Origin: a virus
Reading direction: 5' to 3' (one strand)
Virus record (IMG/VR): IMGVR_UViG_3300042691_015688
Location: 1 to 28,338 of that record
Length of the DNA: 28,338 nt
The translations under genes were made by a program, and so were the position numbers. Of the stretch, positions 5,828 to 22,282 are shown piece after piece (the stretch's first letter is position 1; every line of letters begins with the position of its first letter). The notes under the pieces were generated by a model. The model saw nothing but the letters and a program-made list of their open reading frames with translations, did not search any database and was not told the origin of the DNA.

Positions 5828-6182
5828 ACAACAATCCCTCTTTGATCTCCTCGCAACCCCTGAGAAGCATCTGTACAGCGACGACGATCACGACACATCT
5901 AAGGCTGGGGCAAAGTCGGTCGCGATGCGCTCAGGGTCGCAGAAGGCCTTGCTACTGAATGTGTATGCGAACAGCGCAGTCCTGACCGATGACGAGGCGG
6001 CAGACCGAGCAGGCCTACTCGTCAAGCCGGGATGCTGTTGGTGGCATCGATGCTCTGACCTGCGTAAAGAAGGCCTGATTGCTCAGGTAACAACGAAGAC
6101 TTCCCAACTAACGGGAGAAGAAAGAATGGCCTGCGTCATTACCGAGGCAGGACTCGAACTACACAGAAGGATTAACAAGTGA
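5820..6182 (+). CDS. Winged-helix-type small protein
   Basis: A 120-residue protein starting at GTG 5820, overlapping the previous stop by eight bases. Residues about 40-100 (KALLLNVYANSAVLTDDEAADRAGL, then WWHRCSDLRKEGLIAQV) look like a winged helix-turn-helix: an N-terminal helix, the DEAADRAGL turn, a recognition helix RCSDLRKEGL and a wing. Such proteins occur in phage replication or repair operons and may bind DNA or a polymerase partner. The next gene (SSB) starts within its stop. Function inferred. Confidence 0.6.
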   Translation: MSKQQSLFDLLATPEKHLYSDDDHDTSKAGAKSVAMRSGSQKALLLNVYANSAVLTDDEAADRAGLLVKPGCCWWHRCSDLRKEGLIAQVTTKTSQLTGEERMACVITEAGLELHRRINK

Positions 6183-6514
6183 ACCAAATCGTCATTATCG
6201 GCAACCTCGGCGCAAACCCTGAGCTCCGATACACACAATCAGGCAAGCCTCTCGTCACGATGAACGTCGCTACGAACAGGAAGGTACGCGACGAAGAAGT
6301 AACGACGTGGCATCACGTTGAGGTGTGGGACAAGTTGGCAGAGAACTCTGCCGCAACCCTCGCCGGAGGCACTCGAGTGATCGTTGTCGGGCGACAGGAA
6401 CAGTTCTCTTGGGAGGACAAGAAGACGGGCGAGAAGAGAACGAAGACGATCATCGTGGCCTCCGACATCGGAGTGTCCTTGTCCCGTGCTACCGCCTCCG
6501 TAGAAAAGGCCTAA
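6179..6514 (+). CDS. ssb: Single-stranded DNA-binding protein
   Basis: A 111-residue OB-fold protein starting at GTG 6179 (GTGA overlap). It shows the SSB signature: NQIVIIGNLGANPELRYTQSGK at the N-terminus, FxVATNRK-like VTMNVATNRK, TTWHHVEVWDKLAE, and GTRVIVVGRQEQFSWEDK. It lacks the extended disordered tail and acidic tip (DDDIPF-like) that bacterial SSB uses to recruit host enzymes, ending ATASVEKA, so it is shorter than host SSB and may serve the phage recombination pair only. It binds and protects ssDNA during replication and annealing. Confidence 0.93.
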   Translation: MNQIVIIGNLGANPELRYTQSGKPLVTMNVATNRKVRDEEVTTWHHVEVWDKLAENSAATLAGGTRVIVVGRQEQFSWEDKKTGEKRTKTIIVASDIGVSLSRATASVEKA

Positions 6515-6750
6515 TGCGAAGTCGCTGGTTAGATGAGGCGGCGTGTCTTGATCTAGATGTGAACCTGTTTTTCCCTGAACCGGGGAAATTAGCCCACATT
6601 CAGGTCGCTCGAGCGAAGTCCATCTGTAAGTCGTGTACGGTTCGCGAGCAGTGTCTAGATTATGCGTTGAGTTTCTCTGATCGTTCTATTCCCGGCATAT
6701 GGGGTGGGACGACAGAGTCCGAACGACGACGACTAAAGAGGACACAATGA
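6514..6750 (+). CDS. whiB: WhiB-family iron-sulfur transcription regulator
   Basis: A 78-residue protein. ATG 6514 shares its A with the stop of ssb (TAATG). The WhiB layout is complete: Cys11 (W-x-D-E-A-A-C), Cys38-x-x-Cys41-x5-Cys47 for the [4Fe-4S] cluster, the phrase FFPEPG at 19-24, the turn GIWGG at 61-65 and the basic helix RRRLKR at 71-76. WhiB proteins bind the sigma-A subunit of RNA polymerase in Actinobacteria and respond to redox. A phage copy may redirect host polymerase or block host WhiB; phage WhiB proteins that repress host genes are known. It is the strongest marker that the host is an actinobacterium. Confidence 0.95.
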   Translation: MRSRWLDEAACLDLDVNLFFPEPGKLAHIQVARAKSICKSCTVREQCLDYALSFSDRSIPGIWGGTTESERRRLKRTQ

Positions 6751-10328: not shown

Positions 10329-10831
10329 GCCCTCTTCCCTCAATCGTGTATGTACCGGTTGAGACAACCACATTCGGAGCTCACGACGCACTCCAAGAGG
10401 ACATTGAGTCGGGAGCGTTAGAACCCGACCTGACCCAAGTTGATTGGGAAGGCCTCGCAGAGATCGTCGCCAGCGAAGAAGAGAGCAAGCGGCAGGCCGA
10501 GATCGCTACAGCCCGAGACACATACGGGCGATGCGGCGAATGGCACGACCTTGCGATTAGCGTCGGCTGGACAGAAGAGGACTGGCCTACCCTCTCGAGG
10601 ATCATCTACCGTGAGTCACGCTGTATCCCCGAGGCCTGTTCACGGAGCGACTCGGGCCTAAAGTGTCGCGACGCTGGGCTAGTTCAGGTCAATCAGATTC
10701 ATCGCGAATGGCTCGCCGGTATGGGCTACTCATTCCCTGACGATCTCTTCGACCCTGCGATCAATCTCACGTTCGCCCGTCGTCTCTACGAGACCTCAGG
10801 GTGGAAACCGTGGCGTTGGCTCGCCGAATGA
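10220..10831 (+). CDS. Lipoprotein with lysozyme/transglycosylase-like domain
   Basis: A 203-residue protein. GTG 10220 is seven bases after AAAGGAG (10206-10212). It begins MRRMPFGLQR, has a hydrophobic core and an excellent lipobox LASC (22-25), so the mature protein would be lipid-anchored at Cys25 outside the membrane. Residues 25-115 are an acidic stalk with a helical part. Residues about 105-203 fit a lysozyme-like fold: WPTLSRIIYRESRC places Glu132 as the catalytic acid, GLVQVN at 153-158 is the hallmark turn, and a Trp-rich end (GWKPWRWL) closes it. It could trim peptidoglycan locally, help DNA entry or block superinfection; a lysis role is less likely because it is far from the lysis cassette. 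Its start lies inside the preceding gene (109-base overlap). Confidence 0.75.
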   Translation: MRRMPFGLQRILPCVLLASPFLASCGDDGTSPDSTLSPLPSIVYVPVETTTFGAHDALQEDIESGALEPDLTQVDWEGLAEIVASEEESKRQAEIATARDTYGRCGEWHDLAISVGWTEEDWPTLSRIIYRESRCIPEACSRSDSGLKCRDAGLVQVNQIHREWLAGMGYSFPDDLFDPAINLTFARRLYETSGWKPWRWLAE

Positions 10832-11973
10832 GATTCGTTAGCCTGTTCTCCGGCGTCGGAGGGTTTGATCTAGGCCTAGAACAAGCCGGGATGGAATGTG
10901 TCGCACAGGTCGAATGGGATCGGAACTGCCAAGCGATCCTTGCGAAACATTGGCCGAAAACCCCGAGATGGGGTGACGTAGCGAAAGTGTATGGAAGACA
11001 CCTACCGCCAGCCGAAGTCGTCGCGTTCGGATCACCCTGCCAAGACTTATCCCACGCAGGCAAACGAGCAGGCCTCAACGGCGACAAGTCCGGCCTGTTC
11101 TTTCAGGCGATCCGAATCATAAAGGAGATGCGCGATGCTTCAGCATCCCGACCAACTGGCCCTATTCCCCGATACGCAATCTGGGAGAACGTCCCCGGAG
11201 CACTTAACAGCAACAACGGACGAGACTTTCGGGCCGTCATCGATGCGCTGGCAGACATCGGGGCGGTGGCAATCGAATGGGCTGTGCTGGATGCGCAACA
11301 CTTCGGAGTCCCCCAGCGACGACGGCGCATCTTCCTCGTCGCTATCTTCGATCCTGCTACCGCCGAACGCTGTCCCGATCCGCTACTACCTGTCGGCAAA
11401 GGCCGCCGAGGGAATACTTCGGAGAGCCGAACGACGCTCGAGGACGATACCCCGACTACTGGAAGACGCTCTGACGACTCTCGCGAACAAACGCCCGAAG
11501 ATGACTCAGTCACCGTCTTCCAGCCCGGAGTAATGGTCAGGCAAGGCGCAGGGGTACTTCGCGACCTAGTCCCCTCTCTGCGAGCCGAGGCACACGCAGG
11601 AGACAACCAAGCGCACATCGCCCAGCCCATCGGGTTCTCCCATACTCAAGGCCTCGACCCCCAAGCCTCCGAGATTGCGTGGCCTACCCTGCGCTCCGAA
11701 GGAGGAGGACACGCCGTCCTAACGGAGTACGCATTACGCAAACTGACCCCTTTGGAATGCGAACGGCTGATGGGGTGGCCTGACGACCACACTCGTTGGC
11801 GAGCAGACGGGCAACAGCAGGCTGACGCTCATCGCTACCGGCAGTGCGGTAACGGGGTCGCGTCTCCCGTCGCTCGCTGGGTAGCCGAACAGATCATTAG
11901 GCTTGAGGAACTCAAAATTGAGGCGAAACGTGGTGTTGAGGCCGGATTACGGGAGATTGGGGACGGCGCATGA
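10828..11973 (+). CDS. C5-cytosine DNA methyltransferase
   Basis: A 381-residue enzyme starting at ATG 10828 (ATGA overlap). All core motifs are present: motif I FSGVGGFDLGLE (7-18) for SAM, motif IV GSPCQDLS (68-75) with catalytic Cys71, motif VI WENVPGAL (119-126) with Glu120, motif VIII QRRRRIFLV (163-171), and motifs IX-X in LTPLECERLMGWPDD and YRQCGNGVASPVARWV (337-352). The region 175-300 between VIII and IX is the target-recognition domain; its target cannot be read from sequence. It would methylate phage DNA, for protection or as the first step of a base hypermodification. Another reading frame with its own ribosome site is embedded at 11135-11533, opposite residues 103-235. Confidence 0.93.
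   Translation: MRFVSLFSGVGGFDLGLEQAGMECVAQVEWDRNCQAILAKHWPKTPRWGDVAKVYGRHLPPAEVVAFGSPCQDLSHAGKRAGLNGDKSGLFFQAIRIIKEMRDASASRPTGPIPRYAIWENVPGALNSNNGRDFRAVIDALADIGAVAIEWAVLDAQHFGVPQRRRRIFLVAIFDPATAERCPDPLLPVGKGRRGNTSESRTTLEDDTPTTGRRSDDSREQTPEDDSVTVFQPGVMVRQGAGVLRDLVPSLRAEAHAGDNQAHIAQPIGFSHTQGLDPQASEIAWPTLRSEGGGHAVLTEYALRKLTPLECERLMGWPDDHTRWRADGQQQADAHRYRQCGNGVASPVARWVAEQIIRLEELKIEAKRGVEAGLREIGDGA
11121..11127 (+). promoter_or_regulatory. Internal Shine-Dalgarno (AAAGGAG) for the embedded gene
   Basis: AAAGGAG at 11121-11127 lies inside the methyltransferase coding sequence, seven bases before ATG 11135, which opens a 132-codon frame. Ideal strength and spacing support real translation of the nested gene. 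Confidence 0.7.
11135..11533 (+). CDS. Out-of-frame gene embedded in the methyltransferase gene (YYLSAKA family)
   Basis: A 132-residue protein read in a different frame from the methyltransferase, lying entirely inside it. It has its own ribosome site (AAAGGAG, spacing 7). The sequence is not random: SGRTSPEHL (16-24), CWMRNTSESP (51-60), SLSSILLP (69-76) and YYLSAKAAEGILRRAERR (84-101) followed by IPRLLEDAL match, from memory, a recurrent phage protein (pattern FGxTSPE, W-x-NTxESP, LSxIL, YYLSxKAxxGILRRAExR) that accompanies phage C5-methyltransferases in other host phyla. Function unknown. Partnership with the methyltransferase, for instance modulating it, is inference. Alternative: a conserved shadow frame, which the ribosome site argues against. 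Confidence 0.72.
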   Translation: MLQHPDQLALFPDTQSGRTSPEHLTATTDETFGPSSMRWQTSGRWQSNGLCWMRNTSESPSDDGASSSSLSSILLPPNAVPIRYYLSAKAAEGILRRAERRSRTIPRLLEDALTTLANKRPKMTQSPSSSPE

Positions 11974-12119
11974 AGTTTTATGTTAGGACAGACCACTACT
12001 GCTCAAACTGCGAGGCTCACACGGGCTGGTTCGTGGAGGCGTACGACAACGGGACTGAGTACGCCTGCGATACCTGTGAGCAAATGTGGATAGAGGAAAC
12101 ACGGGATGACCTTGACTGA
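11970..12119 (+). CDS. Small zinc-ribbon protein
   Basis: A 49-residue acidic protein starting at ATG 11970 (ATGA overlap with the methyltransferase stop; GGGGA upstream). Cys11-x-x-Cys14 and Cys33-x-x-Cys36 are spaced as in a zinc ribbon (HYCSNCEAHTGWFVEAYD and YACDTCEQMW). Such mini-ribbons often bind nucleic acid or bridge proteins. It is the last gene of the methyltransferase transcript before a gene-free gap. Confidence 0.65.
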   Translation: MKFYVRTDHYCSNCEAHTGWFVEAYDNGTEYACDTCEQMWIEETRDDLD

Positions 12120-12310
12120 CGGCTCCGAGGTGCTGGTCGCTTGTTCCGCTGTGTAGAACACGCTTGAAGAGGACGCCGAGCAGTAGGCCTCGCCAGTCGG
12201 CCTGCCCCGTAGCGTCGCGTCTCCGAGGCAGGCCTAACCGCCGAGGGCAGGCGGCTCCTCGTATTCTGCCAAGGCTTGCGAACGAAAACCGCACAGGTCA
12301 TAATGTGTCC
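12120..12310 (+). other. Gene-free gap with GC-rich hairpins and a promoter
   Basis: About 190 bases without a convincing gene; the frame open from 12164 translates to Arg/Pro-rich sequence before it joins the ParB-like protein. Three inverted repeats are visible: TGTTC/GAACA (12142-12146 with 12156-12160), GGCCTGCC/GGCAGGCC (12199-12206 with 12227-12234) and CCGCC/GGCGG (12238-12242 with 12250-12254, loop GAGGGCA). They could form a terminator region for the upstream operon or a small structured RNA. The promoter for the next gene is at 12276-12304. No T-run follows the hairpins. Confidence 0.4.
12276..12304 (+). promoter_or_regulatory. Promoter for a leaderless ParB-like mRNA (TTGCGA-N17-CATAAT)
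   Basis: TTGCGA at 12276-12281 and CATAAT at 12299-12304 are separated by 17 bases, a good sigma-A-type match. The predicted +1, seven bases after the -10, is base 12311, which is the G of an in-frame GTG. No ribosome site precedes that GTG. Leaderless mRNAs starting directly at ATG or GTG are common in Actinobacteria. Confidence 0.5.
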
Positions 12311-12952
12311 GTGAACATTCGACCTGAGCTCAAAGAACTTGCCACACCGATTAACAAGATTAAGCCGCATCCTCGCAACGTACGGCAAGGAGACATCGGC
12401 GCAATCTGTACGAGTCTGACCGAACACGGACAGTACCGACCGATCGTCGTACAGAAGAAGTCGCGACACATCCTCGCAGGCAACCACACCTATCTCGCCG
12501 CTAAGAGCCTCGGCTGGGAAGAGATCGCCGTCACCTTCGTTGATTGTGACGATGAAGCCGCCCTGCGAATCCTCCTTGTAGACAACCGTGCCTCGAGCCT
12601 CGCAACCTACGACGACCACGCACTAGGTGATCTCCTTCAGGAACTAGCGGTCACCGACCGAGGCCTTACGGGAACCGGCTACGACGCTGACGACCTCGAT
12701 GACCTCCTGCGCCTCCTCGAGTCGCTCTCAGCGAACCCGATTGACCCCTACAAAGAGTGGGAAGGCATCTCCGACTATCGCTCCGAGGACAAGAACAGCG
12801 TGTTCCACACGACCGTGCACTTCGCGAGCGACGAAGACGCAGACCGATTCTTTGAGACGCTGAAAAGAGACAAGACAGGATCGTTCTGGTGGCCTGACAC
12901 CGATGGGCATCTCGGGTCAACCGTCAAGAAGCAGTTCGTTGCTGAGGCCTGA
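12311..12952 (+). CDS. ParB/sulfiredoxin-fold nuclease-like protein
   Basis: A 213-residue protein. Start taken as GTG 12311, which coincides with the predicted transcription start; GTG 12305 is the other choice and neither has a ribosome site. Residues about 12-80 are a ParB N-terminal-like domain: INKIKPHPRNVRQGD, LTEHGQYRPIVVQKK and ILAGNHTYLAAKSLGW (the GNHxxLAA box in place of the G-x-R box of true ParB), with VDNRASSLATYDD afterwards. The last 75 residues (FHTTVHFASDEDADRFFETL, SFWWPDTDG) are a separate small domain. Phage ParB-like proteins of this type are DNA nucleases or CTPase-type switches and recur beside modified-base enzymes. Position between methyltransferase and glycosyltransferase suggests a role in the same system. 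Confidence 0.8.
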   Translation: MNIRPELKELATPINKIKPHPRNVRQGDIGAICTSLTEHGQYRPIVVQKKSRHILAGNHTYLAAKSLGWEEIAVTFVDCDDEAALRILLVDNRASSLATYDDHALGDLLQELAVTDRGLTGTGYDADDLDDLLRLLESLSANPIDPYKEWEGISDYRSEDKNSVFHTTVHFASDEDADRFFETLKRDKTGSFWWPDTDGHLGSTVKKQFVAEA

Positions 12953-12954
12953 CG

Positions 12955-13860
12955 ATGCCACAACCCCGGTTCCCTCTCTTCATCCCGTCTAAAGGTCGTG
13001 CTGACGTAGCGTGTACGCCACGGTTCCTCGACTCAATCGATGTCGCGTACCGCCTCGTCATCGAAGAACAGCAGTACGAGGACTACAACAAATACTTCGA
13101 CGCGAGCAAACTCATTGTGTTGGACAAGCAGTATCAGGAGAACTACCCGTCACTCGACGAACACGGCTTGTCGTTCTCTAAAGGCTCAGGCCCAGCACGA
13201 AATTTCATTTGGGATTACGCCGTTGATGAAGGCCACGACTGGCATTGGATTATGGACGACAACATCCAACTGTTCGCGATGCTCCAAGACAACCAGCGAA
13301 TCCCTGTCGGTGACGGAACCCTCTTCCACGCTATGGAGACGTTCTGCCTGCGCTACAAGAACGTCGCGATGGCTGGGCCTCAGTACTGGATGTTCGCACC
13401 GTCTCGAGCCAAGTTGCCGCCGTTTACGACAGGGACACGCATCTACAGTTGTAACCTGATCCGTAACGACGTGCCGTTCCGTTGGCGAGGACGCTACAAC
13501 GAAGACACAATCCTGTCGCTCGATATGCTGAAGGCAGGCTGGAATACCGTCCTGTTCAACGCATTCCTCCAATACAAACTCACGACACAAACGATGAAGG
13601 GTGGCAACACCGAGGCCTTCTATTCACAGAAGGGGACGCTACCGAAGTCGCAGATGCTCGTAGATCAACACCCCGATGTCGCAAAGGTTGCGTGGCGATT
13701 CGGACGCTGGCATCACCACGTCGATTACAGCCCGTTTAAGAACCTCGGACTTATCCCCGAGGACGACTACATCCCGTCATCAGAACCGCTCTACAAGTTC
13801 CGTCTCGAGGACAACGAAGAGCGACCGTTCAGACCACCCGGAATCAAGAACTGCCGATGA
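12955..13860 (+). CDS. TET-associated-type glycosyltransferase (TAGT/GREB1-like), putative DNA-base glycosyltransferase
   Basis: A 301-residue protein. It shows the TAGT pattern: PLFIPSKGRAD (8-18) at the nucleotide-sugar end, YRLVIEEQQYEDYNKYF, RNFIWDYA (82-89), HWIMDDNI (97-104) with the Asp-Asp-Asn metal/sugar-nucleotide motif, GPQYWMF, TRIYSCNLIRND, RWRGRYNEDTILSLDML (177-193) and TQTMKGGNTE. In phages these GT-A-like enzymes are known to add sugars to 5-hydroxymethylcytosine made by TET dioxygenases from methylcytosine. Here a C5-methyltransferase lies upstream, but no TET-like dioxygenase is visible in the window, so the acceptor base is unknown. The next gene, a SAM methyltransferase, overlaps its stop. 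Confidence 0.78.
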   Translation: MPQPRFPLFIPSKGRADVACTPRFLDSIDVAYRLVIEEQQYEDYNKYFDASKLIVLDKQYQENYPSLDEHGLSFSKGSGPARNFIWDYAVDEGHDWHWIMDDNIQLFAMLQDNQRIPVGDGTLFHAMETFCLRYKNVAMAGPQYWMFAPSRAKLPPFTTGTRIYSCNLIRNDVPFRWRGRYNEDTILSLDMLKAGWNTVLFNAFLQYKLTTQTMKGGNTEAFYSQKGTLPKSQMLVDQHPDVAKVAWRFGRWHHHVDYSPFKNLGLIPEDDYIPSSEPLYKFRLEDNEERPFRPPGIKNCR

Positions 13861-14633
13861 TCCGCACCGACATCGTTAGCCTCAACCGCAAACAGAGCAT
13901 CCGGTACCTGCGCGACATCCTCCAAGGGATACTCGACCCTGCCGTCATACGACGGATCACCGCAACCCTAATGCGAGACGACGGTATACACGAACGCACC
14001 CAACTCGAGCGACGCTGGTACGACACCTATGACTTCAGCATCTACAGTGAGGATCAATACCTCATTGAGGCGTGGTACTGCTGGCATTACTACTCACGCA
14101 AGTACATTCAGGCCATAACGAAACCGAACGCCGTCCAACAGCAAAGCGTTCGCGACCTTCTCTCCGATACAGCCACAATCGTTGATCTCGGTAACGGGCT
14201 AGGCCTAACGACAGGAGCACTCGCAAACCTGTTCCCGAACGGGAAGATCATCGGCACAAACGTCAAACCCTCAACCCAGTACACGATCGCTGAGCGACTT
14301 GCGAACATCTACAACTACACGATGACCGACGACCTCGAGACGATCACCGGCCCCGTTGAGCTCATCTTCGCATCCGAATACTTCGAGCATCACACACACC
14401 CGATCGACCACCTCAACGACATCATCAACGTCCTCCAACCCCGATACCTGCTACTCGCAAACGCATTCACCGCAGACGCAATAGGCCACTTCAACACCTA
14501 CACGATCAACGGCGAAGAAACAGAAGACCGAGTCACAAACCGTCTCTTCAGTCAGAACCTACGCAAACACGGCTACAACCCGATACCGACGACGTTCTGG
14601 AATAACAGACCGGCACTATGGGAACGACGATGA
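13857..14633 (+). CDS. Class I SAM-dependent methyltransferase, linked to the glycosyltransferase
   Basis: A 258-residue protein starting at ATG 13857 (ATGA overlap). Residues 1-95 are a helical N-terminal region rich in Arg, Tyr and Trp. Residues about 105-230 are a Rossmann methyltransferase: motif I TIVDLGNGLGLTTG (107-120), GKIIGTNV for strand 2, and ELIFASEYFEHHTHP for motif IV, followed by NVLQPRYLLLANAF. The catalytic-loop HH/EH look and the coupling to the glycosyltransferase suggest methylation of a sugar or modified base. A protein or small-molecule methyltransferase cannot be excluded. Codons are unusually rich in ACC/AAC/CTC, like its right-hand neighbours. Confidence 0.7.
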   Translation: MIRTDIVSLNRKQSIRYLRDILQGILDPAVIRRITATLMRDDGIHERTQLERRWYDTYDFSIYSEDQYLIEAWYCWHYYSRKYIQAITKPNAVQQQSVRDLLSDTATIVDLGNGLGLTTGALANLFPNGKIIGTNVKPSTQYTIAERLANIYNYTMTDDLETITGPVELIFASEYFEHHTHPIDHLNDIINVLQPRYLLLANAFTADAIGHFNTYTINGEETEDRVTNRLFSQNLRKHGYNPIPTTFWNNRPALWERR

Positions 14634-18447: not shown

Positions 18448-18717
18448 ATGGCATCATCAAACTTTGCGGTAACGATCACCGACACACCAACATTGATCCT
18501 TGAAGCAGAAAACATTCACCGTCCGATCTACCTTCAGATCATCGGAAACCAAACCGTGTATCTCGGAGACAACGCAAGCCTTACGACGGCGAACGGTTTC
18601 CCGGTTGCGAAACACGCCGCTCCGCTTAACTTCCACTTCGAGCCGGGTACTGCTCTCTACGGTATCTGTGCGGCAGGTCAAACGGAAAACCTGCGAGTGT
18701 TCGCGGTGCGTGACTAA
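18448..18717 (+). CDS. Small beta-rich structural protein
   Basis: An 89-residue protein with ribosome site TAAGGACAG before ATG 18448. It alternates hydrophobic and polar residues throughout (FAVTITDTPTLILEAE, HRPIYLQIIGNQTVYLGD, LNFHFEPGTALYGICA), a jelly-roll-like all-beta pattern. Position between portal and prohead protease suggests a head decoration or accessory virion protein; no enzyme motif seen. The protease gene's ATG shares the A of its stop. Confidence 0.65.
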   Translation: MASSNFAVTITDTPTLILEAENIHRPIYLQIIGNQTVYLGDNASLTTANGFPVAKHAAPLNFHFEPGTALYGICAAGQTENLRVFAVRD

Positions 18718-20840
18718 TGCCGTACGAGATCATTACTAACGCCGAAGGCTGTAACGGTTTCGCTGTCGTTAAAGTTGGCGAACAGGAACCTGTCGCCGGA
18801 GGATGCCACACAAACGAAAACGACGCACAGGCACACGCAGACGCTCTCAATATTGCGACAAGCGACGAACAAAGATCACGCGATCAGGCCTTGATCATTG
18901 ATATTGACGACACGATTATCAGCAACGGAAAGCCTCTTCGCAAGCGCATTAACTACATCAACAGCCTCGAGAACTACAAGATTGTTGTTACCGGAAGATT
19001 CGCCGCCGATAAAACTCAAACCGTCGCTGATCTTGCTGACGCAGGATTGGAATACGACGAACTGATTATGAATCCGGGTGGCGATCCCGTAGAACACAAA
19101 CGCGAAACCGCTAAGAAGATTCTCGAGCGTATGCCTGTAGCAGGAGCCTTCGAGAATTATGACGATGCTCGACAGGCCTACACCGAGTTGGGAATTGACG
19201 CAATCGACCCGACGACGCTGGACGAACTCGGAACAGAGGAACGTGCCGTTGATCTTTCCCCTCCTGAGTACGTTCGCGAGAACTGTCGCCGAGGCCTCTC
19301 CTACTATGAGGAGGGATTCGCTGGCGACGGGCTTAAGGCCAAGACGGTTGCTGAGGCCCGTAATATTGCCGCAGGCAAAACGATCTCCGAAGACAAGGTC
19401 ATTAGGATGCGAGCGTGGATCGCTCGTCATCTCGTTGATCTAGACAACGCACCGGAACCTTCTGACGACGACTACCCGTCACCCGGTCAGGTCGCTCATC
19501 TTCTTTGGGGTTCAGGCACGACTCGTAATGCCGCACAGAAAACCTACGACTGGACGAACATAAAGGTTCGGCAGATCGAACGCGAACGCGAAACTGAGGA
19601 AGATCGAGCAGATGGTCCGGCCTCGAAACCAGCACCGAAAAAAGATCAGGTGTTCGGATCAGAGGAGAATCCTGCCGGAAGTGCCGCAGGCAAGCAGGGT
19701 GGGATCGAACTATCCGAGGCCGTCGAGAAGTCGCTCGCGAAAAAGGCCACGACTCACAATGACAAGATGACCGAGAACGGGCGACCGGACTGGACTCGAG
19801 TAACAGTCGGAGCACTTCGTTCTGTTTACCGTCGTGGGGCTGGAGCGTTCTCTACATCGCACCGCCCCGGTATGACTCGAGGCCAATGGGCGATGGGCAG
19901 GGTAAACGCATTCTTGTATCTCGCCGAGAAGGGCAAGCCGGAGAACAAGAACTATGTGGGCGATAACGATTTGCTACACAAAGATCACCCGAAGTATTCA
20001 GACACAAACAGTAGGTCAGACACAATGAACACCGAGACGCGAGAACTACCGCCGTCCTATCGCCCTGCGTCGTCGGAAGACGTTCCTGTGCTTAGGCCTT
20101 CCTGTATGTCGTGTGAACACTTTGAGTCAGATCAGTCATACTGTGAGAAGTGGTCAGCAGAAGTACAGCCTGACTACTACTGCGATGCTTACTGTCCCGA
20201 GGAAGAATCGCCCGAGGAAGAGACCCCCGAAATGGAGCAGGAACCGATGATGGAAGAACTGTCAAACCTGTGGATAACCCGTTCCCTTGACGAGAAGAGA
20301 ACCGTTGCGTACACCACAATCGAATGTCGCGCAATGGGAGACGGCAACACGCTGGTCGGATACGCCGCCCTGTTCGACACTCCTTCCCACGATCTGGGCG
20401 GTTTCGTTGAGTACGTCTCGCCCGGAGCCTTCCGTAAGACGCTCAACGATGGTGCCGACGTTCGGCTCCTTATCGATCACGAAGGTGCGCCGCTTGCCCG
20501 TACGAAGTCAGGCACAATGCGTCTCGTAGAAGATGAGCGAGGCCTTCGTGTTGAGGCCGATCTTGACCCTGCGAACCCCGTTGCCGCAGGAGTGATCTCG
20601 GCCCTGAAGCGTGGCGATATGAACCAAATGTCGTTCGCGTTCCGTACGGTCAAAGATGAATGGTCTCGAGACCGAGCAACCCGAACCCTTAAAGAGGTGC
20701 GACTGTTCGACGTTTCTGTAGTCACATTTCCAGCGTATGAGGCCACAGTCGCCGAAGTACGGGGGATGCTTGACAACACCACCGCACCCTCCGGTAACAT
20801 CCTCCGTAGGAAGCGGCAAATCCAAATCGCCGCTCTCTGA
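18717..20840 (+). CDS. Multidomain prohead protease polyprotein with HAD phosphatase domain
   Basis: A 707-residue protein. Domains in order: 1-46, a short beta-helix module (YEIITNAEGCNGFAVVKVG); 57-165, a HAD phosphatase of polynucleotide-kinase 3'-phosphatase type with DIDDT (62-66), VVTGR (90-94) and YDDA (148-151), so catalytically intact; 181-290, a helical module PPEYVRENCRRGLSYYEEG ... YPSPGQVAHLLWG; 350-426, VGALRSVYRRGAGAFSTSHR ... YVGDNDLLHKDHP; 463-493, a cysteine cluster (CMSC, C476, C489, C493); 515-700, the HK97/U35 prohead protease with LVGYAALFD, DHEG (His588), MSFAFR (Ser639) and FDVSVVTFPAYEAT. HK97 proteases are usually about 200 residues. The protease should cut the scaffold domain off the capsid protein; the other modules may enter the prohead with it. 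ATG 20025 could start a separate short form. Confidence 0.88.
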   Translation: MPYEIITNAEGCNGFAVVKVGEQEPVAGGCHTNENDAQAHADALNIATSDEQRSRDQALIIDIDDTIISNGKPLRKRINYINSLENYKIVVTGRFAADKTQTVADLADAGLEYDELIMNPGGDPVEHKRETAKKILERMPVAGAFENYDDARQAYTELGIDAIDPTTLDELGTEERAVDLSPPEYVRENCRRGLSYYEEGFAGDGLKAKTVAEARNIAAGKTISEDKVIRMRAWIARHLVDLDNAPEPSDDDYPSPGQVAHLLWGSGTTRNAAQKTYDWTNIKVRQIERERETEEDRADGPASKPAPKKDQVFGSEENPAGSAAGKQGGIELSEAVEKSLAKKATTHNDKMTENGRPDWTRVTVGALRSVYRRGAGAFSTSHRPGMTRGQWAMGRVNAFLYLAEKGKPENKNYVGDNDLLHKDHPKYSDTNSRSDTMNTETRELPPSYRPASSEDVPVLRPSCMSCEHFESDQSYCEKWSAEVQPDYYCDAYCPEEESPEEETPEMEQEPMMEELSNLWITRSLDEKRTVAYTTIECRAMGDGNTLVGYAALFDTPSHDLGGFVEYVSPGAFRKTLNDGADVRLLIDHEGAPLARTKSGTMRLVEDERGLRVEADLDPANPVAAGVISALKRGDMNQMSFAFRTVKDEWSRDRATRTLKEVRLFDVSVVTFPAYEATVAEVRGMLDNTTAPSGNILRRKRQIQIAAL

Positions 20841-20925
20841 ACGAATCGGGTTGAGAGCCGGGACATCCCACTCACAACACCACTCGTAGTCCCGAAAACA
20901 TCAACGACTACAGGAGAAACAAACC
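20841..20925 (+). promoter_or_regulatory. Capsid-gene leader with two mutually exclusive hairpins
   Basis: CGGGAC (20859-20864) can pair with GTCCCG (20889-20894), while the overlapping GTAGTC (20886-20891) can pair with GACTAC (20906-20911), directly before the Shine-Dalgarno AGGAG at 20912-20916. The two pairings share bases, so they exclude each other. This could tune translation or RNA processing of the most abundant virion protein; inference from pairing only. Confidence 0.4.
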
Positions 20926-22272
20926 ATGTCCTTCGCAAAGCAACTGCGCGAAAAGCGTGATGCCCGAATCAACGAATCGCAGAACATCATCGCGACCGCC
21001 GAAGCCGACAAGCGTGAGCTCACGACCGAAGAGGACACTCGCATCGGTGCGATCCTTGATGAAGTGCGCTCGCTCGACACTCAGATCACGAACGCCGAAG
21101 AGGTTGAGAAGCGAGCCGCTGAGGCCGCTGAGGCTCGCAAGCCCATCGAGAACGAAGTCCGTGGCGGCGCAGTCGTTCGCAACGAGGCTCGCACCTACCG
21201 TCCGAACGGTGAGAACGACTTCATCGCCGATGCGTTCCGTGCGCAGATTCTCGGTTCCTACGAGGCTCGCGAGCGCATCGCTCGCCACCAGCAGGAAGAG
21301 GCCGTGGAGCGTCGTGCCGTCGGCACCTCGGCGTTCTCCGGCTTGGTCGTCCCCCAGTACCTCGTTGATTTGGTGGCTCCGTACGCCCGTGCTGGTCGCC
21401 CGTTCCTCGACGGAGCGACGGTCGGACACGGTCTGCCTGACGAGGGCATGACCATCTACATCAGCCGTATCACCACCGGTTCTTCGACTGCTGTTCAGTC
21501 CTCGGAAAACTCGGCTGTGTCCGAGACGAATATGGACGACACCCTGCTGTCCGTCCCCGTCATCACCGTCGCCGGTCAGCAGACCGTTTCGCGTCAGTCG
21601 CTCGAGCGTGGCACGAACATCGAGCAGATCGTTATGGGAGACCTCGTCCGTGCGTGGCACACCAGCCTCGACTCGCAGGCGATCCTCGGCTCCGGCTCGT
21701 CCGGTCAGGCCAAGGGCATCTACACCACCCTCGACGGTGGAGCCAACGAGATCACCTACACCGATGCGTCCCCGACCGTCGCCGAGTTGTACCCCAAGTT
21801 GGCTGACGCGATTCAGCGTGTTCAGGCCGCAACCTTCCAACAGCCCACGCACTGGGTGATGGCTCCTCGCCGTTTGGCTTGGTTCCTGTCGTCGCTCGAT
21901 GGGCAGAACCGTCCGTTGGTCGTCCCGACTGCGAACGGTCCGATGAATGCCCTCTCGACGGGCGACGGTGCGGTGCGCTACGCGAACAGCGGCTACTCGC
22001 TGATGGGCCTCCCGATCATCACGGACGGCAACGTCCAGCTGACGCTCGGCTCCGGCACCAACGAGGATGTCATTTACTGCGTGAACGGAATGGAATCCCA
22101 CCTGTGGGAGGCACCCGGTCACCCGATGATGCTCAACTTCGAACAGCCGAACGCCGCAAGTCTCGGTGTGCTGATCGTGGTCTACGGCTATGCGGCATAC
22201 ACCGCAGAGCGGTACGGTGCGGTCGGTCACTCGATGATCACCGGAACCGGCCTCGCCGCTCCGTCGTTCTGA
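20926..22272 (+). CDS. Major capsid protein (HK97 fold)
   Basis: A 448-residue protein with ribosome site AGGAG ten bases before ATG 20926. Residues 1-75 are a charged coiled coil (REKRDARINESQNII, TEEDTRIGAILDEVRSL), the scaffold-like delta domain removed by the prohead protease. The mature part starts around 110-130 and shows family phrases: GTSAFSGLVVPQYLVDLVAP, VTVAGQQTVSRQSLERG-like VITVAGQQTVSRQSL, HWVMAPRRLAWFLSSLD, LMGLPIITDGNV and ASLGVLIVVYGYAAYTAERY. It forms the icosahedral shell. Codon choice is the most biased in the window, as expected for the most abundant protein. Confidence 0.96.
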   Translation: MSFAKQLREKRDARINESQNIIATAEADKRELTTEEDTRIGAILDEVRSLDTQITNAEEVEKRAAEAAEARKPIENEVRGGAVVRNEARTYRPNGENDFIADAFRAQILGSYEARERIARHQQEEAVERRAVGTSAFSGLVVPQYLVDLVAPYARAGRPFLDGATVGHGLPDEGMTIYISRITTGSSTAVQSSENSAVSETNMDDTLLSVPVITVAGQQTVSRQSLERGTNIEQIVMGDLVRAWHTSLDSQAILGSGSSGQAKGIYTTLDGGANEITYTDASPTVAELYPKLADAIQRVQAATFQQPTHWVMAPRRLAWFLSSLDGQNRPLVVPTANGPMNALSTGDGAVRYANSGYSLMGLPIITDGNVQLTLGSGTNEDVIYCVNGMESHLWEAPGHPMMLNFEQPNAASLGVLIVVYGYAAYTAERYGAVGHSMITGTGLAAPSF

Positions 22273-22282
22273 CCTGAACATC

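Follow-up and report, generated by a model that had tools for sequence, protein, structure and literature searches.

The window analysed here comprises 28,338 bases of viral DNA, the linear IMG/VR record IMGVR_UViG_3300042691_015688, which is probably a fragment. It encodes a TAGT-type glycosyltransferase and a ParB-like protein with a C-terminal domain that is named MPEF here. This core of ParB and TAGT recurs across viral contigs, and the pairing of MPEF with TAGT is obligate. With moderate confidence, the module is read as a system for TET-independent glycosylation of DNA, guided by ParB and MPEF, with variable tailoring of the sugar; an acceptor other than the usual 5-hydroxymethylcytosine (5hmC) is predicted. 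The original prediction for this region had described a single DNA hypermodification block. Open reading frame (ORF) and profile checks of the window recovered every gene that it named, in the order given, yet the block splits into two units (Table 1). Unit one consists of a C5-cytosine methyltransferase, a frame embedded in its gene and a small zinc-ribbon-like protein; unit two consists of the ParB-like protein, TAGT and an S-adenosylmethionine (SAM) methyltransferase, and is followed by HNH-like and terminase genes. The composition and gene order of the module are established. Its diagnostic feature, the MPEF domain, had been overlooked in the first reading.

A TAGT scan of viral contigs yielded 556 relatives, the best 80 of which were retained; in most of those kept a ParB gene adjoins the TAGT gene, abutting or overlapping its start. 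A hidden Markov model (HMM) built for MPEF, whose motif among relatives is EWxGMPEF...KTxSxWWP, placed the domain just upstream of TAGT or fused to it at 86 of the 86 loci with enough upstream sequence, a set that partly overlaps the training set of the HMM and leaves five further, truncated loci unscored. The sole scorable TAGT without MPEF was that of Nonlabens/Persicivirga phage P12024L, which comes from a TET operon. Because of the overlap with the training set, more weight is given to two other searches. A consensus of ParB-borne MPEF copies only, compared with 50,697 phage genomes, gave 12 matches, all of them N-terminal TAGT fusions (12/12). Variability in the ParB alignment precluded a profile scan, so a single ParB sequence was used as query and 80 ParB genes were fetched. 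MPEF was present in 22 of the 80, and TAGT lay nearby in 22/22; TAGT accompanied none of the 58 genes without MPEF (0/58; Fisher p 4e-20, uncorrected for relatedness and with some contigs recurring from the TAGT scan). A DPPY-type methylase motif was found in the same frame in 39 of these 58 genes, and the ParB-methylase frames of two isolates, when checked, contained N6/N4 methylase domains (PF01555). Scans of viral contigs with a second TAGT or with the P12024L TAGT returned almost only self-matches.

The arrangements observed are ParB-MPEF beside TAGT, an MPEF-TAGT fusion, MPEF alone, and ParB-MPEF-TAGT in one frame. The last is found in locus L012 (89-1573), where the single frame carries a second, divergent TAGT and is followed by a normal TAGT gene. 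In Vibrio, Aeromonas, Tenacibaculum and Pectobacterium phages, TAGT itself begins with MPEF. At four loci of T4-like Aeromonas and Pectobacterium phages (L123, L124, L125 and L128, ~5830-6100) a second, tiny MPEF-like protein of ~66 amino acids (aa) is encoded directly downstream of the MPEF-TAGT gene. Distances between TAGT proteins correlated with those between MPEF domains at a Mantel r of 0.51 and with those between ParB domains at 0.20; mean pairwise identities were 58% for TAGT, 38% for MPEF and 31% for the ParB domain. This pattern would fit a role of MPEF in binding TAGT and a ParB domain that differs from target to target. Across 18 contigs or records, mostly of 26-52 kb, the only widely common families were TAGT (17/18) and ParB (14/18). 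Next came a portal-type protein, in 6, and none of the families ranking after TAGT and ParB-MPEF (portal, replication, terminase) exceeded 6 of 18.

The window TAGT scores 146 bits against PF20691, for which the curated cut-off is 27.5, and retains the invariant residues DDN 101-103, NED 182-184 and HH 253-254. Its AlphaFold2 model (mean pLDDT 90.6) has a GT-A fold with an acidic metal-binding motif at D101-D102-N103. Foldseek neighbours of the model in the PDB were GT-A enzymes that use UDP-sugars, with low TM-scores (0.38-0.48), and its viral neighbours were TAGT proteins and a T-even type beta-glucosyl-HMC glucosyltransferase; PDB sequence searches found no relative. Family membership and fold are thereby established, and the TAGT call, set beforehand as refutable by structure, holds under profile and structure comparison alike.

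For the ParB-MPEF protein, compared in an alignment of 37 sequences, the listed TTG start at 12164 lies too far upstream. Its AlphaFold2 model has a mean pLDDT of 87.2, with the MPEF part partly of low confidence, and the N-terminal part resembles ParB and Noc in Foldseek. The ParB_N domain of chromosome-partition ParB is present (PF02195). The canonical GERR motif and the full ParB architecture are not: AGNHT stands at the motif, MPEF occupies the C-terminus, and the protein falls below the TIGR00180 cut-off.

The ParB-MPEF protein and TAGT would form a two-component phage DNA-modification module. TAGT would be the catalytic subunit, a GT-A transferase dependent on a nucleotide sugar, and MPEF a docking domain joining it to its partner, while the ParB domain would engage DNA and probably select it. 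The use of a nucleotide sugar and DNA as the substrate are suggested by analogy with relatives: enzymes of the PF20691 family from T2/T6 glucosylate DNA (PMC13216743, PMC13390438), and ParB domains occur fused to DNA methylases, a fusion of ParB relatives also observed in PMC12783734. The downstream SAM enzyme may trim or cap the sugar, as may the second glycosyltransferase, the dehydratase/epimerase-type protein or the radical SAM protein of relatives. The module would use neither TET nor a phage cytosine methylase nor nucleotide-level pyrimidine hydroxymethylation, and its acceptor would therefore not be the usual 5hmC. The original prediction had listed another acceptor as its third option, and that option is also favoured here.

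The SAM methyltransferase is a probable tailoring enzyme, as judged from gene neighbourhoods. Its predicted coupling to TAGT is borne out by the overlap given in Table 1, and several methyltransferase genes neighbouring TAGT or ParB likewise overlap their neighbours by short stretches. Homologues found by blastp lie upstream of ParB (L017), between ParB and TAGT (L010), before a stand-alone MPEF that itself precedes TAGT (L048), and, as in the window, after TAGT (L060); a fifth match, at the DNA level (tblastn), was found in L066. This recurrence beside TAGT in varied gene order fits the sugar-tailoring step that had been proposed for the enzyme. It had no close relative among the phage records searched. 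Other genes at the tailoring position encode a sugar-binding-type glycosyltransferase (L059 and relatives), a radical SAM protein (L045), a GDP-mannose-dehydratase/epimerase-type protein (L044) or a second TAGT (L012, L036), a range that would fit a glycan built stepwise.

On the standard route, the C5 methylase would make 5-methylcytosine, a TET enzyme encoded in the unseen part of the genome would convert it to 5hmC, and TAGT would glycosylate the product. The window is a fragment, its methylase is upstream on the same strand with intact motifs (PCQ within GSPCQ, ENV, QRRRR and GNG), and TET-TAGT-methyltransferase operons do exist (P12024L gp26-28); the route is nevertheless very unlikely here. 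A whole-record search with PF00145 found a full-length C5 methylase in the window only among 47 records, three others giving partial, weak matches, and the loci near TAGT in relatives hold no counterpart of it. The ParB gene starts about 190 bases beyond the zinc ribbon. As the original prediction had stated, no TET oxidase is visible in the window: PF12851 and PF20515 gave no match, and PF12851 was positive in a known TET phage. PF12851 had no match in 50 records, the window and 49 relatives, in a run in which the control was silent; when repeated, it matched 0/16 (the window, five long contigs and ten isolates, eight of these titled complete genome), with the control P12024L at E 2.8e-29. 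PF20515 matched no record searched and was an uninformative probe. A P12024L query found TET in 32 phage records, which have no host-genus group in common with the MPEF-TAGT records. In phage Nigel the protein stretch scanned was without TET, and a later search puts a TET-like match near 1.0-1.5 kb. The TET-linked TAGT belongs to a distant branch, is 23% identical to that of the window and has no MPEF. The relatives searched contain neither a full-length C5 methylase nor TET, and apart from ParB and TAGT no gene is common to many of the 18 contigs. It is therefore unlikely that, as had been suggested, the unseen part encodes an oxidase, whose absence probably does not stem from the window being incomplete. 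The C5 methylase is judged not to belong to the ParB-TAGT module. Nor was the thymidylate-synthase superfamily (PF00303), to which the T4 hydroxymethylase and the RB69-type 5-hydroxy-dCMP synthase belong (PMC13390438), found in the window and 41 other viral contigs. Thymidylate synthase is present in large isolates, and the copies read retain the dUMP-type Asn. T4 gp42 (dCMP hydroxymethylase) was not found in 9 of 10 isolates, in which the carriers tested differ from the T2/T6 setting. At these sensitivities, TET is undetectable in the carriers searched, and so are the other known enzymes that could make a hydroxyl acceptor, hydroxymethylase among them, in the small carriers.

Since no further gene is widely common, either the pair suffices, or the suppliers of a handle vary, or the substrate is not DNA. 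If the pair suffices, the sugar would go onto an ordinary base; such a direct, handle-free transfer to a canonical base, ParB-guided and sequence-selective with MPEF as dedicated recruiter, is rather doubtful and is put forward tentatively. A hydroxyl handle from an unrecognised phage or host enzyme, a sub-case of the preferred reading with DNA as substrate, is a possibility of some substance, if on the unlikely side: the known T2/T6 relatives of TAGT transfer sugar onto a hydroxyl (PMC13216743) and large carriers have hundreds of unassigned genes, but only TAGT and ParB-MPEF recur widely across the 18 contigs of diverse phages, and the hosts span from actinobacteria to Vibrio, Aeromonas and Tenacibaculum. 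It is unlikely that TAGT glycosylates a protein (of the virion, or ParB itself) or a component of the cell envelope. The protein glycosyltransferases ColGalT1, LARGE1 and GalNAc-T2 are among the PDB neighbours, the TAGT gene adjoins terminase genes and in Vibrio phage 1.076.O is flanked by portal and head genes, and no known route makes the acceptor base; yet those TM-scores are low and reflect the common GT-A fold, the T-even family members act on DNA (PMC13216743), and TAGT is obligately tied to a domain of a ParB protein whose relatives fuse to DNA methylases. A C5-methylase homologue, the carboxymethyltransferase CmoX, can start hypermodification without TET (PMC12783734), and ParB-domain genes are found near CmoX. 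That the window C5 enzyme supplies a different handle in this way is extremely improbable: it carries GSPCQ in place of SPPC, its GNG motif has Asn at the residue corresponding to Arg350 of CmoX (the HhaI Asn304 position, placed by motif), and the SAM methyltransferase has no match to CmoA. These residues and profiles rule the CmoX/CmoA route out at the sequence level.

Several points weigh against ParB-guided, TET-independent glycosylation of DNA. DNA modification by the module is predicted from its genes, and 19 of the 58 ParB frames lacking MPEF have no DPPY motif either. The window methyltransferase is weakly related to known families and had no close relative from the viral contigs. Phages Kuja and henriette have a thymidylate-synthase-family enzyme with an Asn fitting dUMP, and hydroxymethyl-uracil made by such a dUMP-type enzyme is possible in either. 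Tenacibaculum phage PTm1 (L140) encodes a sequence weakly resembling gp42/thymidylate synthase, in which Asp stands close to the specificity position, and may make hydroxymethyl-dCMP. Nearly all viral contigs are fragments, and a divergent oxidase could escape detection.

The module may be compared with several known systems. In P12024L gp26-gp28, as in the window, a TAGT-family glycosyltransferase is followed by a methyltransferase in one operon; unlike the window, that operon has TET and neither ParB nor MPEF, and its methyltransferase carries a DPPY motif and has no meaningful similarity to that of the window. This compact TET-TAGT-DPPY methyltransferase operon (L144, 7122-9387) is a useful control for TET-linked TAGT. 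The T2/T6 beta-glucosyl-HMC-alpha-glucosyltransferase, which attaches another glucose to 5hmC that already bears one (PMC13216743), belongs like the window TAGT to PF20691; phrog_842 carries its name, and a Klebsiella phage member shares the fold of the window TAGT (TM 0.57-0.62). For the glycosyltransferase of Aeromonas phage Aeh1, PMC8056088, citing Iyer 2013, gives an 'unknown base' as the target; the entry is matched here to its gene by phage and annotation, not by sequence. The Aeh1-type TAGT is of the same branch as that of the window and about 50% identical; it differs in having MPEF fused N-terminally, no separate ParB partner adjacent and a large T4-like genome. In phage ParB-DNA methylase fusions such as those of Curtobacterium phage Elener (gp1) and Gordonia phage Salvador (gp82) the ParB domain is about 41% identical to that of the window, and a C-terminal N6/N4 methylase replaces MPEF. 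The Elener fusion (L150, 36-1867) occupies the corresponding site, immediately before the gene for the terminase small subunit. The insertion of 7-deazaguanine by DpdA-DpdB involves a ParB-like ATPase, DpdB (PMC12839542), and is an earlier example of base modification with a partner from the ParB superfamily; it differs in its transglycosylase chemistry and is likened here by description only.

Unit one is ordinary phage cargo. Relatives of its C5 methylase were found in 1,479 phage records. The embedded ORF encodes 132 aa, and homologues of it were found in 93 phage records; that of Mycobacterium phage Lucky2013 is likewise read in frame +1 with respect to the methylase. It is possibly a conserved overlapping gene, on matches uncorrected for nucleotide conservation of the methylase. 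The zinc-ribbon-like ORF shares 4 bases with the methylase stop. Elsewhere in the window, positions 6325-6750 hold a WhiB regulator gene (PF02467, E 2e-20), which points to an actinobacterial host. A 707-aa frame at 18717-20840 combines a prohead protease (Peptidase_S78) with a DUF5824 stretch and, at the N-terminus, a HAD phosphatase/polynucleotide-kinase-like part. A 457-aa frame at 20908-22281 on the minus strand, antisense to almost the entire major capsid gene, is probably a shadow frame.

Table 1. Features of the two units, in window coordinates
Feature	Position	Strand	Evidence
C5-cytosine DNA methyltransferase	10801 (or 10828)-11973	+	PF00145 E 1e-60, TIGR00675
Embedded +1-frame ORF within the C5 methylase gene	11135-11533	+	phrog_16143 2e-4
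Small zinc-ribbon-like protein	11970-12119	+	zinc-ribbon Pfam matches below curated cut-offs; four Cys
ParB-MPEF protein, about 214 aa	12308-12952	+	PF02195 E 1e-7, 31.9 bits; phrog_723
ParB_N / Srx-fold domain	12350-12682	+	Pfam match; Foldseek to CTP- or CDP-bound ParB
MPEF domain, ~55 residues	12743-12907	+	HMM built here
TAGT-type GT-A glycosyltransferase, MPEF-linked branch	12955-13860	+	PF20691 E 1e-42, phrog_842 E 9e-45
Class I SAM methyltransferase	13857-14633	+	Pfam matches below cut-off; 4-base overlap with TAGT stop

TAGT enzymes take their name from the TET oxidases, and their action is explained by way of TET or of hydroxymethylation as in T4. A large phage branch of TAGT pairs instead with a ParB-borne domain, without the known acceptor-making enzymes. 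The 'unknown base' entry for Aeh1 thereby becomes a testable question in culturable phages, and ParB domains become candidates for shared DNA-engaging parts of phage DNA-modifying enzymes.

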